The translations under genes were made by a program, and so were the position numbers. This document shows, piece by piece, positions 3,399-8,658 of a stretch of DNA of 8,774 nucleotides. The stretch comes from Candidatus Nanoarchaeia archaeon (lineage in GTDB: Archaea > Nanoarchaeota > Nanoarchaeia > SCGC-AAA011-G17 > JAFCDX01): contig JAQUND010000064.1 of assembly GCA_028717785.1 (NCBI GenBank), forward strand, positions 1 to 8,774, given 5' to 3'. A model generated the notes under the pieces. It saw only the letters and a program-made list of their open reading frames with translations. It ran no database searches and was not told the origin of the DNA. Each line of letters opens with the position of its first letter. Positions within the stretch are counted from its first letter, which is position 1.

Positions 3399-5567
3399 TT
3401 ATTGATTTTCTGTTAAACCTTTTCTAGTTCTAATTTGTTTAATTATTTTTGCTTGTAAATCTTCAGGTAATTTTTCGAAAACTTGATCTACAACGAAGAA
3501 AACACCACGTCCACCTGTTGCACTTCTAACTTCATTACTTAATCCAAACATTTCAGCAACTGGTAATTTTGCTTTTATTGTAATATGTTCTTCTTCTTGA
3601 ATCATATCTAATAATTGTCCACGTTTGTTTTGAACTAATTTAGAAATATCTCCCATATGTTCTACTGGAGCTTCAATTTGTAAAATTTGCATTGGTTCGA
3701 ATAAAACGGCTTTAGCATCACGCATAGCATCTCTAATTGCATCTCTTACAGCAGGTAACATTTGTGCTGGACCTCTGTGAATAGCATCTTCGTGTAATTT
3801 ACAATCAACTAAATCAACTCTAATTTTAACTCCTGGTTCTCTTGCTAATGGACCTTCATTCATAACTTGTTCAAATCCATCAAGAACTAATTCTATAATT
3901 TCCCCAATATGAACAATACCTTTAGTTGAATCAACTAACATATTACCTTTGTAAATATCTCTAACATTTCTTGCATCTTTATTTTCATAACCAAGATCTA
4001 ATAATTTTTTAACTAAATCATCATCTTTCTTTTTAATTCTCATTTCTGGAATTTCTCCAGCTTTTATAGTTGCAGAAACATTTTCTTCTAATGGTCTTAC
4101 TTTGAAATATAATTTATTGTGTTTGTTTGGAGATTTACCTTCCATTTCTGCAGATTCTTTTTGAATTGCTTCTCTGTAAACAACAATAGGATTACTAGTT
4201 TTAACATCTAATCCTTTTTCTGTTTTAATTCTATTTTCTGTAACTTCTAAATGTAATTCTCCCATTCCTGAAATTAAATTTTCTCCAGTTTCTTCATTAA
4301 TTTCAATTTTAATAGAAGGATCTTCTTTACTTACTTGTCTTAAAACTTCAATTAATCTTGCTAAATCTGCTGTTTTTTTTGCTTCTATAGATTTTGTAAT
4401 AACTGGTTCAAAAATATGTTTAATAGATTCGAATGGTTCAATTGGATTACTTGAAACAGTTTCTCCTGCAAAAGTATCTTTCAATCCAACAACACCAATA
4501 ACATTTCCTGCTGGAATTTCATCAACTAAAATTCTTTGGGCTCCTTTGTAAACAGAAACTTGTTGTACTCTAATTGATTTTTTAGCCATGTTTAAATATA
4601 AATCTTGACCTTGTTTTATTGTTCCTGAGAATAAACGACCTGCAGCAACTTCTCCTGCATGTTTATCAATAACAATTTTTGTAACTACAAAAGCAACTGG
4701 ACCACTTGCATCACAACTAATTAATGATTTACCTTCTGTACTATCAATATCTCCATGCCAAATTTTTGGAATTCTATATTTTTGAGCTTCCATTGGATTT
4801 GGATGATGTTTAATACACATACTTAAAACAACTTGATGTAATGGTGCTTTATGTGCTAATTCTTTAAAAGTACCTTTTTCATAAGCATCAATTACATCTT
4901 TAAAAGATAATCCTGATTTCTGCATATAAGGAAATGATAAAGCCCAATTATGAAAAGCTGAACCAAATGCAACTGATCCATCTTGTACACTTACTTGCCA
5001 TTTTTCTTTAAATTCTTCTGGAGCAATTGATCTTATTAATTTATTAATTTCATCTATAATTTTAATAAAACGTTCCTGCATTTTTTCAGGAGTTAGTTTA
5101 ACTTCTTTGATTAAACGATCAACTTTATTAATGAATAAAACTGGTTTTACTCTTTCTCTTAATGCTTGTCTTAATACTGTTTCTGTTTGTGGCATAATAC
5201 CTTCAACAGCACAACATAAAACTATAGCTCCATCAATAGCTCTCATTGCTCTTGTAACGTCTCCACCAAAATCAACGTGTCCAGGAGTATCAATTAAATT
5301 AATTAAATAATCTTCACCCTCAGATTTATGAACCATAGAAACATTAGCTGCATCAATAGTAATTCCTCTTTGCTGTTCATCTTCGTGAAAATCTAAAGAT
5401 AATTGCTTTCCTGCTAATTCTTCAGAAATCATTCCAGCTCCTAATAATAAGTTATCTGAGAATGTAGTTTTCCCATGATCAATATGGGCGCACGTACAAA
5501 TATTTCTAATGTGATCTCTCTTTTTAGTTAATTCTTTTACTTGTTCAATAAATTTATCTACAGCCAT
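3399..5567 (-). CDS. fusA: Translation elongation factor 2 (aEF2)
   Basis: Ribosomal translocase that moves tRNAs and mRNA after peptide-bond formation, using GTP. The 722-residue protein is full length for the archaeal family. The G domain has G1 AHIDHGKT (27-34), the RGITI switch segment (67-71), G3 DTPGH (93-97) and G4 NKVD (147-150). Domain II includes IDKHAGEVAAGRLFSGT (300-316). Domain III has LISGMGELHLEV (431-442). Domain IV has the segment LHEDAIHRGPAQ (591-602), in which His597 is the residue converted to diphthamide in archaea and eukaryotes. The C terminus, KLPEDLQAKIIKQIRTRKGL, is family-typical, while the stretch ATGGRGVFFVVDQV just before it departs from the usual archaeal TSGKALWSTE. 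The start is supported by a minus-strand TATA box 27 bases upstream, so the mRNA is predicted leaderless. It is transcribed divergently from the 390-codon gene. Confidence 0.98.
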   Translation of the reverse strand: MAVDKFIEQVKELTKKRDHIRNICTCAHIDHGKTTFSDNLLLGAGMISEELAGKQLSLDFHEDEQQRGITIDAANVSMVHKSEGEDYLINLIDTPGHVDFGGDVTRAMRAIDGAIVLCCAVEGIMPQTETVLRQALRERVKPVLFINKVDRLIKEVKLTPEKMQERFIKIIDEINKLIRSIAPEEFKEKWQVSVQDGSVAFGSAFHNWALSFPYMQKSGLSFKDVIDAYEKGTFKELAHKAPLHQVVLSMCIKHHPNPMEAQKYRIPKIWHGDIDSTEGKSLISCDASGPVAFVVTKIVIDKHAGEVAAGRLFSGTIKQGQDLYLNMAKKSIRVQQVSVYKGAQRILVDEIPAGNVIGVVGLKDTFAGETVSSNPIEPFESIKHIFEPVITKSIEAKKTADLARLIEVLRQVSKEDPSIKIEINEETGENLISGMGELHLEVTENRIKTEKGLDVKTSNPIVVYREAIQKESAEMEGKSPNKHNKLYFKVRPLEENVSATIKAGEIPEMRIKKKDDDLVKKLLDLGYENKDARNVRDIYKGNMLVDSTKGIVHIGEIIELVLDGFEQVMNEGPLAREPGVKIRVDLVDCKLHEDAIHRGPAQMLPAVRDAIRDAMRDAKAVLFEPMQILQIEAPVEHMGDISKLVQNKRGQLLDMIQEEEHITIKAKLPVAEMFGLSNEVRSATGGRGVFFVVDQVFEKLPEDLQAKIIKQIRTRKGLTENQ

Positions 5568-5619: not shown

Positions 5620-5633
5620 GAAAGGTTTAAATA
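5620..5633 (+). promoter_or_regulatory. BRE and TATA box of the 390-codon gene
   Basis: GAAAG (5620-5624), one base, then TTTAAATA (5626-5633). This is nearly identical to the element before the gene at 1323. Transcription should start near 5655, leaving a leader of about 20 bases that holds a Shine-Dalgarno site. The start point would fall inside the palindrome at 5650-5663. Confidence 0.7.
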
Positions 5634-5649
5634 CTAAAATTGTAGTTAA

Positions 5650-5663
5650 TTAGTAACTACTAA
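5650..5663. promoter_or_regulatory. 14-bp palindrome at the predicted transcription start, candidate operator
   Basis: TTAGTA-AC-TACTAA is a perfect 6-bp inverted repeat with a two-base spacer. It lies 17-30 bases downstream of the TATA box, where a bound repressor would block RNA polymerase, and directly abuts the Shine-Dalgarno site. An overlapping second inverted repeat, GTAGTTA (5642-5648) with TAACTAC (5654-5660), shares its bases. As RNA it could form a 5-bp stem with an AACT loop next to the ribosome-binding site. A sister palindrome occurs at 6865-6878. Confidence 0.5.
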
Positions 5664-5668
5664 GAGGT
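5664..5668 (+). promoter_or_regulatory. Shine-Dalgarno site GAGGT of the 390-codon gene
   Basis: GAGGT ends seven bases before the ATG at 5676. It is the only convincing Shine-Dalgarno site among the gene starts in the window, all others being leaderless or nearly so. It fixes the start codon choice and shows that this mRNA has a true leader. Confidence 0.7.
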
Positions 5669-5675
5669 AAATAAA

Positions 5676-6848
5676 ATGAAAGATATACCTTCTAATGAAA
5701 ATGGAAAGACAGAAAGTCATAGATTTGCTAATTTGTGTTATCTTACTTCTATGGCAACTAAATCTGGAAAAGGTAAAAGTGAAGATGTATTAATAACAGA
5801 ACATAAAATTTTAAAAAAATGGTGTGAACTTGTAGGTTTAGAATCTGGAATATTTTTAGATCAAGTTATTAAATATTTTCAAGATAAAGTAGAATATCAA
5901 AAAGCACAAGACATTATTACAGAAAACACTCTTTTACAACATCAACAAAGAGGAATAGAAGAACTTGTTGAAACTAATGAATTATCATTAAATCCAAAAG
6001 AAGTAAATGAAGCAATAAAATTTATTAAAGAATATAAAAATAAACCAAATCAACAAGAAATAGATTCTTCTTTAAAAGAAATTTTAGAAAAGCACAGATA
6101 CGATTTAGATTCAGCAGCAGTTCCATTAAATAATAATCAAATTAAAGAATTATTTGAAGTAGCAGATACAAATCTTAGAATTGATCAAGAAGAAAGTGAT
6201 TTACTTGGATATATTATACGTATGAATAATTTACCTAATGCAGTTCAAGAGTCTAGAGATATTGCTAATAAATTTTTAAAAAGATATTCTCAAGATAAAT
6301 CTTTATTATTATGTTTATCAGAAAAAGACTCACAAAAAAAAGAAATTATAGAACAATTAAAAACATTAGGTTATAAAATTGGATTATTAAATCCTTTAGT
6401 TAATGTTTGTCCGTTAATGGATGGTAATCAATTTAATCCAGATAAAACGGGTTCAGATGAAAATACTTTTAATCTTTATATTACTGAATTTGGAGATATA
6501 GAAGCTGAAAAAGGATTTAAACCAAATATGCTTATTATCGATCCAAAATCAATTATAGATCAAATTCCAAATTATAATGCAAAAAGAGATATAAGTTATA
6601 TTAAAGACGAATTAAGAAAAGTTTGTATGAGTTTTGAAAATTTAGGTAAAGATATTCCAATTATAGTATATGGTAAACAAGAAGATATTGAAACATTTAA
6701 AGATATGAGTTTAAATATTAGAACTTTAACAAGAGAAAACATTAATGTACTTGATTTAAATTCTGGTCAAGAAAAAACAGAAATACAAAAACTTCAAGGT
6801 CAAATTAATAATATATATGAATTACACGAAAGAAATAAAGCCTTATAG
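5676..6848 (+). CDS. Uncharacterised 390-residue protein with a helical N-terminal half and a C-terminal receiver-like domain
   Basis: No whole-protein family is recognised. Residues 1-205 are mostly helical and charged, without signal or membrane segments. Two stretches (about 17-70 and 150-205, the latter with EVADTNLRIDQEESDLLGYI) faintly resemble TerB-type helical repeats, which is a weak inference. Residues about 207-360 follow the order of a response-regulator receiver: beta-1 SLLLCLSEKD with acidic Glu216 and Asp218, helix 219-231, beta-2 YKIGLL, a 40-residue insertion, beta-3 PNMLIIDPKS with Asp289 at the phospho-acceptor position, beta-4 DIPIIVYG and beta-5 NIRTLT. The conserved Ser/Thr after beta-4 and Lys after beta-5 are not evident, so phosphorylation is doubtful. 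A final helix (365-388) could mediate coiled-coil pairing. The promoter, palindrome and Shine-Dalgarno site upstream support the start. The next gene begins 43 bp later with its own promoter and related palindrome, suggesting linked roles. Confidence 0.75.
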   Translation: MKDIPSNENGKTESHRFANLCYLTSMATKSGKGKSEDVLITEHKILKKWCELVGLESGIFLDQVIKYFQDKVEYQKAQDIITENTLLQHQQRGIEELVETNELSLNPKEVNEAIKFIKEYKNKPNQQEIDSSLKEILEKHRYDLDSAAVPLNNNQIKELFEVADTNLRIDQEESDLLGYIIRMNNLPNAVQESRDIANKFLKRYSQDKSLLLCLSEKDSQKKEIIEQLKTLGYKIGLLNPLVNVCPLMDGNQFNPDKTGSDENTFNLYITEFGDIEAEKGFKPNMLIIDPKSIIDQIPNYNAKRDISYIKDELRKVCMSFENLGKDIPIIVYGKQEDIETFKDMSLNIRTLTRENINVLDLNSGQEKTEIQKLQGQINNIYELHERNKAL

Positions 6849-6863
6849 AAAGCTTTATAAATA
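6848..6863 (+). promoter_or_regulatory. BRE and TATA box of the 588-codon gene
   Basis: GAAAG (6848-6852) then TTTATAAATA (6854-6863). The first G is the last base of the preceding gene's TAG stop, so the promoter starts exactly where the upstream frame ends. The TATA centre is about 33 bases before the ATG at 6892, giving a predicted leader near 9 bases without a Shine-Dalgarno site. The gene can therefore be transcribed separately from its neighbour. Confidence 0.7.
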
Positions 6864-6864
6864 G

Positions 6865-6878
6865 TTACTAACTAGTAA
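6865..6878. promoter_or_regulatory. 14-bp palindrome between TATA box and start of the 588-codon gene, candidate operator
   Basis: TTACTA-AC-TAGTAA is a perfect 6-bp inverted repeat with the same AC spacer as the palindrome at 5650-5663. The two differ only at positions 4 and 11, where G and C are exchanged so that symmetry is kept. It begins two bases after the TATA box, a classic position for archaeal repressors that stop polymerase recruitment. Protein binding is inferred; the symmetry itself is directly visible. Confidence 0.5.
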
Positions 6879-6891
6879 TAACAGATATAAA

Positions 6892-8658
6892 ATGACACAA
6901 ACATTAGAGCAAAGATTAGGAATAGAAGAAAAACAAATGAGTAATGGTGGAATCGCTTTAGTAATTAGTGATCCAAACGAAGAAATAAAAGGAATTTTAC
7001 ATAAAGGTAAAAAATTAATTGAACCCCAAAAATTAGCTAAAGCAATTGATGAAAAATATTTATTACAACAAGAATTAGATTTTAATAATGAATTATTAGG
7101 TATGCATAGATATTTTGATTCATTAAGAGATTCTATTAAAAGAAAAGAACTTACAGTTGATAAAGCAATAGAAGGAGCACTTACTCATTTAGCAGGATAT
7201 GTTGGTGCATTTTATGTAGGATTTAATCTTAATGAAAATTTAAAAGTAGAAAATAAAGTAGATGTTAAAAATATTAATTATGTATGTACCGAAGTTATAC
7301 ATGGCAAAGAAGGATATAAACCATTAAATGGAAAAGGAAAAGATTTTTTTAAAGCATTTAGAGATGTTAATGAAGAACTTAAATTAAATTTTCAAGAACC
7401 AAAAAATAATTATTATGAAGATATAGAACAATCAACAGAACAAGTTTCTAAATCAAGACCTCTAAGCGGAAGTGCATTTACCTTTTATCTTAAACCAGGT
7501 CATGATGTTATTGGTGCAATTCAAGCAATACAAACAAAAAAAATTGGGCCTAAAGAAGGAAGATATATCAAAGAATGGGTAAATCTTGCTGATACTTTTT
7601 TAAGTGATATATTAAACATAAAAATTGAAGCAGATAATAGTGAAATATTTACAGAAGAACAACCTTTAGAAAATTTAGAAGAAATAACTGATACAGATGA
7701 TGAAAGAGTAAGAAATACTTTTGGTTTATCTACTGATGAAATGGGAGCAGAATTTATCGGTGGTGGAGATTATAAAAATAGAGGAGCAAATATTGAAAAA
7801 AAATTAGAAACCGAAAAAAAATCTTGGAAATTTTATGTACCTAATTCTTATTTTGATAAAAATTATACACAAATAAGAGATCAAATTACTCACTTCTTTT
7901 CTGGATTTACAAATGTAGAAGTAGAAGGTGCTAAAGATATTGAAAGTAAAAAATTTGAAAAAGGTAAAAAATTAATAAATGATATTTACAGAGAAAGACC
8001 TGAATTTAATATAGATCAAGAAGAAGCTGAAAAAGATCTTAATTCTGCAGTTTCAAATATGAAAATGATAAATGCTTTATACTTAAAATATGGAGACAAA
8101 ATCTGCAAGGAATTTAAATTAAGTGATGGAAGAGAAATTGATCAAGAAACTTTAGAAACTGCTTCTATTTTTACAGCAGCATTTGCAAAAGCAGTAAAAT
8201 ATATGCATCAAGCAGATATATTACCAAGAATAGAAGAAGTAAGAGAAAGAAATGATATTAGAGAATTAACTGGTTATCTAGCTAGTCTTATAGAAACACC
8301 AAAAATTGCAGGAGAATTTGTTTATTTTGGAGAACCTTTAGTAAACAAATTTAAAAAACCTTCATTATTAGGTTCTACTGTTATAGACATTTCAAATAAA
8401 TTAGATCCAAATAAAGAAAGTCATTTTGCTATTGACTTAATTGAAAAAGTAATGACTTATGAAGAAAGAATACAAAATAATGATATAGATAAAACAATTT
8501 GGAAGATGTATGAAGATTGTGTTAAACAACAAAATGGAAAACTAATGATTGATAATAATGGAATTTATGCAATAAGAATGATTGATACTCTTGTTCACGA
8601 TGAAAAGGGTAGCGTATATCCTAAGTTTAAAGAACAAATGGATAATCTAATTAAATAA
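6892..8658 (+). CDS. Uncharacterised 588-residue protein with an N-terminal GAF-like sensor domain
   Basis: Residues about 60-90 form a helix leading into a GAF-like domain (about 85-245). This has TVDKAIEGALTHLAGYVGAF at its start, beta strands FYVGF and SAFTFYL, and the typical closing segment VIGAIQAIQTKK followed by a long helix (YIKEWVNLADTFLSDIL). GAF domains bind small ligands or mediate dimerisation in signalling proteins; no ligand can be named. An acidic linker (about 246-272) separates it from a C-terminal part of about 310 residues, mostly helical, that I cannot assign. Within this, about 375-530 faintly follows an HD-GYP-like order, but no HD metal-binding pair is visible. There is no signal peptide or membrane segment, so it should be cytoplasmic. 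The ATG at 6892 is preferred over Met16 because it lies close to the predicted transcription start. The 3' end overlaps the convergent gene by 8 bp. Confidence 0.75.
   Translation: MTQTLEQRLGIEEKQMSNGGIALVISDPNEEIKGILHKGKKLIEPQKLAKAIDEKYLLQQELDFNNELLGMHRYFDSLRDSIKRKELTVDKAIEGALTHLAGYVGAFYVGFNLNENLKVENKVDVKNINYVCTEVIHGKEGYKPLNGKGKDFFKAFRDVNEELKLNFQEPKNNYYEDIEQSTEQVSKSRPLSGSAFTFYLKPGHDVIGAIQAIQTKKIGPKEGRYIKEWVNLADTFLSDILNIKIEADNSEIFTEEQPLENLEEITDTDDERVRNTFGLSTDEMGAEFIGGGDYKNRGANIEKKLETEKKSWKFYVPNSYFDKNYTQIRDQITHFFSGFTNVEVEGAKDIESKKFEKGKKLINDIYRERPEFNIDQEEAEKDLNSAVSNMKMINALYLKYGDKICKEFKLSDGREIDQETLETASIFTAAFAKAVKYMHQADILPRIEEVRERNDIRELTGYLASLIETPKIAGEFVYFGEPLVNKFKKPSLLGSTVIDISNKLDPNKESHFAIDLIEKVMTYEERIQNNDIDKTIWKMYEDCVKQQNGKLMIDNNGIYAIRMIDTLVHDEKGSVYPKFKEQMDNLIK

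Follow-up and report, generated by a model that had tools for sequence, protein, structure and literature searches.

An 8,774-nucleotide stretch of DNA from a Candidatus Nanoarchaeia archaeon (contig JAQUND010000064.1 of assembly GCA_028717785.1; hereafter, the window) carries two adjacent genes, A and B, that raise the question of whether they form a sensory system and, if so, of what kind. The initial annotation, drawn from the sequence, had pointed to neighbouring open reading frames of 390 and 588 residues, the first ending in a receiver-like fold and the second starting with a GAF-like domain, as the possible parts of a split signalling module. Both frames were confirmed on the + strand, at 5676–6848 (gene A, 390 residues) and 6892–8658 (gene B, 588 residues), with a spacing of 43 bp. 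The two proteins resemble eroded relatives of signalling proteins of the bacterial type, and with a probability of roughly 0.4 we read them as a non-catalytic signalling cassette of two fast-evolving proteins, belonging to a narrow DPANN lineage. The window itself is DPANN archaeal DNA, and the best matches of its EF-2 are in metagenome-assembled genomes of Woesearchaeota and Nanoarchaeota.

The most striking fact about the locus is the contrast between fast-changing A and B and their conserved neighbours. On one side lies the EF-2 gene (3399–5567, − strand), the divergent neighbour of A, which served as synteny anchor. On the other is the C-terminal end (40 residues) of a protein of the PhageMetallopep family, PF18894 (8651–8773, − strand), a conserved neighbour that is tail-to-tail with B and overlaps it by 8 bp; the homologue of this metallopeptidase at locus L001 matches PF18894. 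The metallopeptidase is present at 3 of 44 EF-2 loci (L001, L002 and L039), and a profile made from those three copies found no further one at the other 41. The gene beside it is B-like in all three. EF-2 is 86% identical to that of the window at L001 (residues 1–722), 88% at L039 (residues 6–263, the only part on the contig) and 77% at L002, and the 40 metallopeptidase residues present in the window are matched at 36, 35 and 27 positions in L001, L039 and L002, respectively. In contrast, identity to window A is 28% at L001 and 18% at L039, and identity to window B is 19% at L001, 21% at L039 and 19% at L002. Despite this rapid change in B, its tail-to-tail overlap with the metallopeptidase is held at 4–9 bp in five lineages (window 8651–8658; L001 1208–1215; L039 1415–1423; L002 7807–7810; L057 4395–4403). 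With so few loci compared, replacement by distant homologues may also be a source of the divergence of A and B.

The order of the pair is kept where both genes occur. L001 and L039 each have an A-like gene ahead of B, read in the same direction, with an overlap of 4 bp in the former and a gap of 2 bp in the latter, and A and B are adjacent and co-oriented in both of the other genomes with clearly found A-like genes. Within the order of the closest relative (103 genomes) the metallopeptidase is found in four genomes, namely those of L001, L002 and L039 and a fourth, G080, in which a gene of B-like size lies against it with no A beside it. L002, likewise, has a B-like gene without an adjacent A. 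L001 B is a protein of only 328 residues that aligns with L039 B from residue 93 on, over the C-terminal half of L039 B, and therefore has no GAF region. Because A or the GAF region can be missing while the HD-like C-terminal part of B stays, this last part is the most constant one of the cassette. The linked, lineage-restricted pair expected by the initial annotation is thus supported by adjacency, co-orientation and a conserved leader (see below), and its co-occurrence holds at L001 and L039 and breaks down at L002 and G080. The idea of a receiver–GAF protein split at the facing ends of two genes found no support; no fusion appeared in the searches made, and we do not favour the idea, since relatives may lack A or may lack the GAF region. 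A better reading is that B would itself be a sensor-output protein, combining a GAF-like region with a degenerate HD-like domain, with A as an accessory pseudo-receiver.

The divergent proteins can be connected through pairwise and profile comparisons with shuffled sequences as controls. L001 A and L039 A share 37% identity over 293 columns (E 1e-61 for the pair), and window A matches their joint profile over 49 columns in the expected place with a score of 23.6, which none of 100 shuffles reached (best 22.3). L002 B matches a profile of window-type B proteins with E 5.5e-5 and a score of 45.0 (0/100 shuffles as good, best 32.0), and L039 B does so over the start of the GAF-like region with E 0.005 and a score of 30.9 (0/100, best 28.7). 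L001 B and G080 B gave no direct match to this profile, 74 and 94 of 100 shuffles, respectively, being as good; L001 B is 26% identical to L039 B over 249 positions (E 3e-12), and G080 B has a weak match of 49 columns to L001 B (E 0.001). By these stepwise matches, the B proteins of the window, L001, L039 and L002 are linked to one another at the sequence level, and the assignment of G080 B rests mainly on its position.

A start signal has also been retained. The leader element AGTAACTACT-N3-AGGT (14 bases; 5652–5668, + strand) lies just upstream of gene A, and its end resembles a ribosome-binding site. It occurs exactly ahead of the first gene of the operon in the window, L001, L039 and L002, with a TATA-like box before each. 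At L002 the listed GTG start overlaps the last bases of the element, and an ATG three codons on (MNKM...) would restore the spacing of the others; the frame behind the element there (9459–9830) encodes a 123-residue protein in the place of gene A. Genomes G001, G002 and G003 hold a single exact copy each, every one at the A–B locus, and the element thus marks the A–B operon in those relatives that have it. A scan of the class (378 genomes) returned five exact copies, comprising these three and two by unrelated genes (G115 and G232). A reversed-pattern control likewise gave five, so about five chance matches are expected in the 378 genomes. One-mismatch copies in G080, before an unrelated secreted-looking protein, and in G083 were taken as chance. 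That place and start signal are fixed despite fast sequence change suggests a sensing pair under unusual selection.

The matching promoters and operator-like palindromes described earlier are indeed present before both genes. By direct reading, gene A is preceded by a TATA-box-like element, TTTAAATA (5626–5633, + strand), with CGAAAGG in front, which we take to be of the archaeal TATA/BRE (B recognition element) type, and gene B by a TATA-like box, TTTATAAATA (6854–6863, + strand). An inverted-repeat scan found the operator-like GTAGTTA-N5-TAACTAC (5642–5660, 7-base arms) ahead of A, and an imperfect inverted repeat with 13-base arms, 85% complementary, lies ahead of B (6855–6881). A motif drawn from both promoter and repeat sites, and defined after these had been seen, has four matches with up to three mismatches, all at these two places, where 0.34 would be expected from shuffles. 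In the relatives the right half of the repeat of A is conserved and the left half partly so; as L001 has not kept the left arm, we do not propose a simple palindromic operator for every one of them. A sigma-70 promoter scan, irrelevant to an archaeon, found fewer sites than in shuffles.

The structural models suggest what B may be. The protein is predicted to comprise N-terminal strands, a long helix (residues 45–83), a GAF-like region (residues about 60–250; 7069–7641, + strand), a linker and an HD-like C-terminal domain (residues 345–588; 7924–8655, + strand), the last assigned by fold comparison. Residues 351–588 are the best-modelled part (predicted local distance difference test, pLDDT, about 79) and match HD domains, although the initial annotation had left the rest of each protein unrecognised and so missed this part. 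Residues 345–588 resemble the HD domain of the HD-GYP, SAMHD1 and phosphodiesterase type; all 27 C-terminal-only rows of the fold comparison are HD-type, by title or by known family, and the top solved folds for B are the HD-GYP structures 4mcw and 4r8z. On these models an HD fold for the C-terminal part of B is likely. The GAF-like region is plausible by structure comparison and was modelled with low confidence, and we lean towards a GAF fold there. Sequence support is marginal for HD in one relative, in that 3 of 200 shuffles were as good as L039 B against the HD_5 profile, and is absent for GAF.

Gene A encodes a helical N-terminal region followed by a receiver-like (pseudo-receiver) C-terminal domain (residues about 201–360; 6276–6755, + strand), in which Asp289 closes predicted strand 3. 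The C-terminal model is receiver-like, with RssB among the solved matches and with other Rossmann folds tying. The two lowest root-mean-square deviation (rmsd) values in the fold list belong to receivers, and five of seven receiver rows align over 84–87% of the target chain. A receiver profile built from the order fitted the three-sequence profile of A (window plus two relatives) better than every shuffle (0/198 as good) and that of the two relatives alone better than most (7/200 as good). PF00072 gave no match at E up to 1 for A, and none for L001 or L039 A. A receiver fold at the end of A is modestly favoured by the models and has weak support from sequence; the claim of the initial annotation is to this extent plausible, and it is tempered by the Rossmann ties and the missing PF00072 match. 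A TerB-like N-terminal half of A, considered by its look, has nothing to support it and is not claimed.

Several results weigh against these assignments. The models of A and B are of low confidence, Foldseek returned no significant match for either, receivers are level with SDR and RCK folds in the fold comparison of A, and window A alone gave no signal above other pairings against the receiver profile. No GAF match (PF13185 or PF01590) was found at E up to 1 for B and eight B-type relatives, and the search for receiver and GAF profiles proposed earlier ended with neither protein recognised by Pfam. A GAF profile scored window-type B such that 9 of 200 shuffles were as good, but with its 14 columns at the wrong place; for L002 B 61 of 200 were as good, and a half-domain GAF hidden Markov model placed no B protein above shuffles. 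Against the HD_5 profile, 27 of 200 shuffles were as good as L001 B and 92 of 200 as good as window-type B. The three folds (receiver, GAF and HD) are best described as supported but not proven.

The hallmarks of HD-GYP phosphodiesterases, which correspond in part to PF13487, are HD, HHE and GYP motifs, and this set of metal-binding and signature motifs was not found in B. No invariant histidine occurs in residues 345–588 across five B proteins; among four distant ones, an HD dipeptide is absent from L001, L039 and G080 B and occurs twice in L002 B, whereas the HD_5 proteins of the order retain HD and HH motifs. The five active-site residues of receivers, as listed in an excerpt of a 2025 review, are DD, D, T and K (PMC12632262), and this set is not found in the A family. 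Asp289 fits the receiver D in window A, with Ser aligned there in L001 and L039 A, and G333/K334 and T352/R353, rather than T and K, follow predicted strands 4 and 5 at positions taken from a weak model. Given the lack of an invariant histidine in B and the serine at the aspartate position of A, the receiver- and HD-like parts are probably not catalytic, if the folds are right.

Gene order, synteny, divergence, the conserved leader and an HD-like part with no invariant histidine were observed directly; we infer dimerisation, ligand sensing, contact between A and B and an output role. B would dimerise via its long N-terminal helix, its GAF-like region would sense a small molecule or a partner, and the following helix would pass this state to the C-terminal HD-fold domain, which, with its metal ligands lost, would act as a protein- or RNA-binding output and not as a phosphodiesterase. 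A would be a pseudo-receiver without a full phosphotransfer site, serving as the docking partner or adaptor of B. No hydrophobic or membrane segment occurs in A or B, and a cytoplasmic cassette is the best reading of the sequences. No kinase was found among five window proteins scanned with Pfam. It is possible, if doubtful, that the locus is a ‘pseudo two-component’ cassette restricted to a small DPANN clade, in which both proteins lack catalytic sites and act purely by protein contacts. Their sequences would then be replaced almost entirely from one close relative to the next, in the manner of an interface kept under steady pressure (by a changing host, for instance), with gene order, the tail-to-tail overlap with the metallopeptidase gene and the leader element remaining fixed.

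Three other explanations were weighed. Misassigned folds, with A ending in some other Rossmann-like (nucleotide- or cofactor-binding) domain and B in a C-terminus merely resembling HD, are rather unlikely; the low-confidence models, the level SDR and RCK folds and the lack of a significant Foldseek match speak for this, and the translation-factor genes near the pair (EF-2 and EF-1 alpha) would perhaps then hint at an RNA- or translation-related role, but every C-terminal-only row of B is an HD-type chain, receivers give the lowest rmsd values and cover most of their target chains, and none of 198 shuffles does as well as the receiver register of the A profile from three sequences. We regard as improbable a drifted REC/GAF-HD-GYP system in which B is a working HD-type phosphohydrolase (for a cyclic dinucleotide, for example) regulated by its GAF region, with A as its response regulator. 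HD-GYP structures head the fold list of B, HD_5 exceeds the cut-off in 16 of the 103 genomes of the order, and in genome G095, of the same order, locus L156 combines an HD_5 gene whose motifs look intact (4227–4853) with a receiver-like gene that starts 8 bp further on (4862–5203; PF00072 E 2.3e-4, below the cut-off). This reading, however, would have to accommodate the lack of an invariant histidine column in B, when HD and HH persist in the HD_5 proteins of the order, and the serine in place of the receiver aspartate in both relatives of A.

A conflict module (defence, toxin–antitoxin or mobile) in a fixed hotspot, changing at the speed of an arms race, is less probable again. It would account for extreme divergence beside conserved genes, for an A and a GAF region that come and go like modules and for the PhageMetallopep gene next door. 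However, a PADLOC scan of four proteins (A, B, L039 B and L001 A) gave only one weak partial match (E 0.014), phage records and viral contigs held no relative of B, and the leader and position, both conserved, point to vertical inheritance. The non-catalytic signalling cassette remains our preferred reading.

GAF-HD-GYP and REC-HD-GYP architectures are common in bacteria, and proteins of this RpfG type share with the A–B pair the order of a GAF-like and then an HD-like part in B, a receiver-like partner and the best folds (4mcw and 4r8z); unlike in these, the receiver-like domain here is on a separate gene, the metal-binding histidines are absent and no Pfam or NCBIfam match exists. HDOD proteins resemble B in an HD-like fold without catalytic histidines, and 3i7a and SadB (9qzk), which we take to be HDOD-like, are among its fold matches, but B has no HDOD profile match (PF08668 was not among its matches at E up to 1). 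The G095 genes, presumably flanked by aIF5B-like and S6e-like genes with other reading frames around, offer a natural counterpart in which HD and receiver genes are split, being separate, adjacent and near translation genes; they differ from A–B in their reversed order, their intact-looking motifs and the absence of a GAF-like region. Pseudo-receivers, as presented in the excerpted review (PMC12632262), likewise have a receiver fold without key active-site residues, whereas A is assigned by structure and weak profiles and is not recognised by PF00072. With the co-component systems VtrA/VtrC and ToxR/ToxS, as an excerpt of PMC9214523 describes them, the pair shares the character of a fast-evolving two-gene cassette recognised less by its sequence than by the order of its operon and the predicted fold, and the adjacent, co-operonic arrangement that defines such systems is kept in the window, L001 and L039 at 18–28% identity. 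VtrA/VtrC is, in contrast, described there as membrane-tethered with a DNA-binding output (PMC9214523); A and B have no membrane segment, match no DNA-binding family in Pfam or NCBIfam, and their folds are unrelated.

Searches with the sequences underline how isolated the pair is. Among about 5.8 billion proteins, gene A found only itself, and a profile of A and its two syntenic relatives added one protein, nearly identical to the L039 member already included; gene B found six relatives at 41–57% identity, one named as from a Woesearchaeota archaeon. Scans with B gave 299 pattern stretches in genome contigs and 58 in viral contigs, none of which was confirmed, and no relative in phage records. 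A profile of B (A1) found nothing in 12 genomes or in the 103 of the order of the L001 genome; its one match among the 378 genomes of the class is weak, contains internal stops and was taken as chance. Two order-wide profile searches (103 genomes) gave strong matches in two and three genomes, all at loci used to build the profiles, and two further matches of profile A2 (G003 and G107; E about 0.002) were not accepted. Searches of PDB sequences with A, B and both alignments returned no meaningful relative; matches of A to designed PPR proteins (E down to 6e-8) involved 31 residues of the helical region with no stretch passing alone and were dropped. Pfam and NCBIfam hold no usable family for A- and B-type proteins, nor do PADLOC and PHROGs for the four A- and B-type proteins scanned with each; the best library E-values, 0.014 and above, are all to unrelated families and below the curated cut-off where one exists.

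The expectation of an archaeon otherwise poor in signalling genes fails for the order of the closest relative, which is not devoid of them: in addition to HD_5, receivers exceed the cut-off in 35 of the 103 genomes and GAF_2 in two. In contrast, a 2018 census reports no two-component systems among the Nanoarchaeota genomes finished by then (PMC5847659). A 2021 paper records, from a BLAST search, putative GGDEF proteins in DPANN archaea (PMC8646023), and the 2025 review is unaware of published work on archaeal pseudo-receiver function (PMC12632262). No title or abstract start among the literature matches listed from one library describes such a pair. Little work has characterised signalling in symbiotic DPANN archaea, and the locus offers a defined, small, soluble-looking pair with a leader element that is open to testing. 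It also suggests that signalling systems of this sort, by evolving too fast, can escape detection with profiles.

Two smaller observations concern the surroundings. In G003, contig C1 (about 527558–529893; L113 and L085) has a GAF match in a 682-residue frame with a receiver gene about 1.6 kb on, likely an ordinary two-component system in a relative. In the window, a gene at 1323–2279 encodes a 318-residue protein with an N-terminal hydrophobic stretch, a HEMGH zinc-protease-like motif and a weak Peptidase_M78 match (E 0.11), and L002 has, downstream of EF-2, a gene for a related-looking protein of 315 residues. The reverse complement of the leader core, TAGTAGTTAC, lies within 1270–1300, just upstream of the promoter of this gene, and the related GTAGTTAC lies at the promoter, hinting at a regulator shared with the A–B operon.

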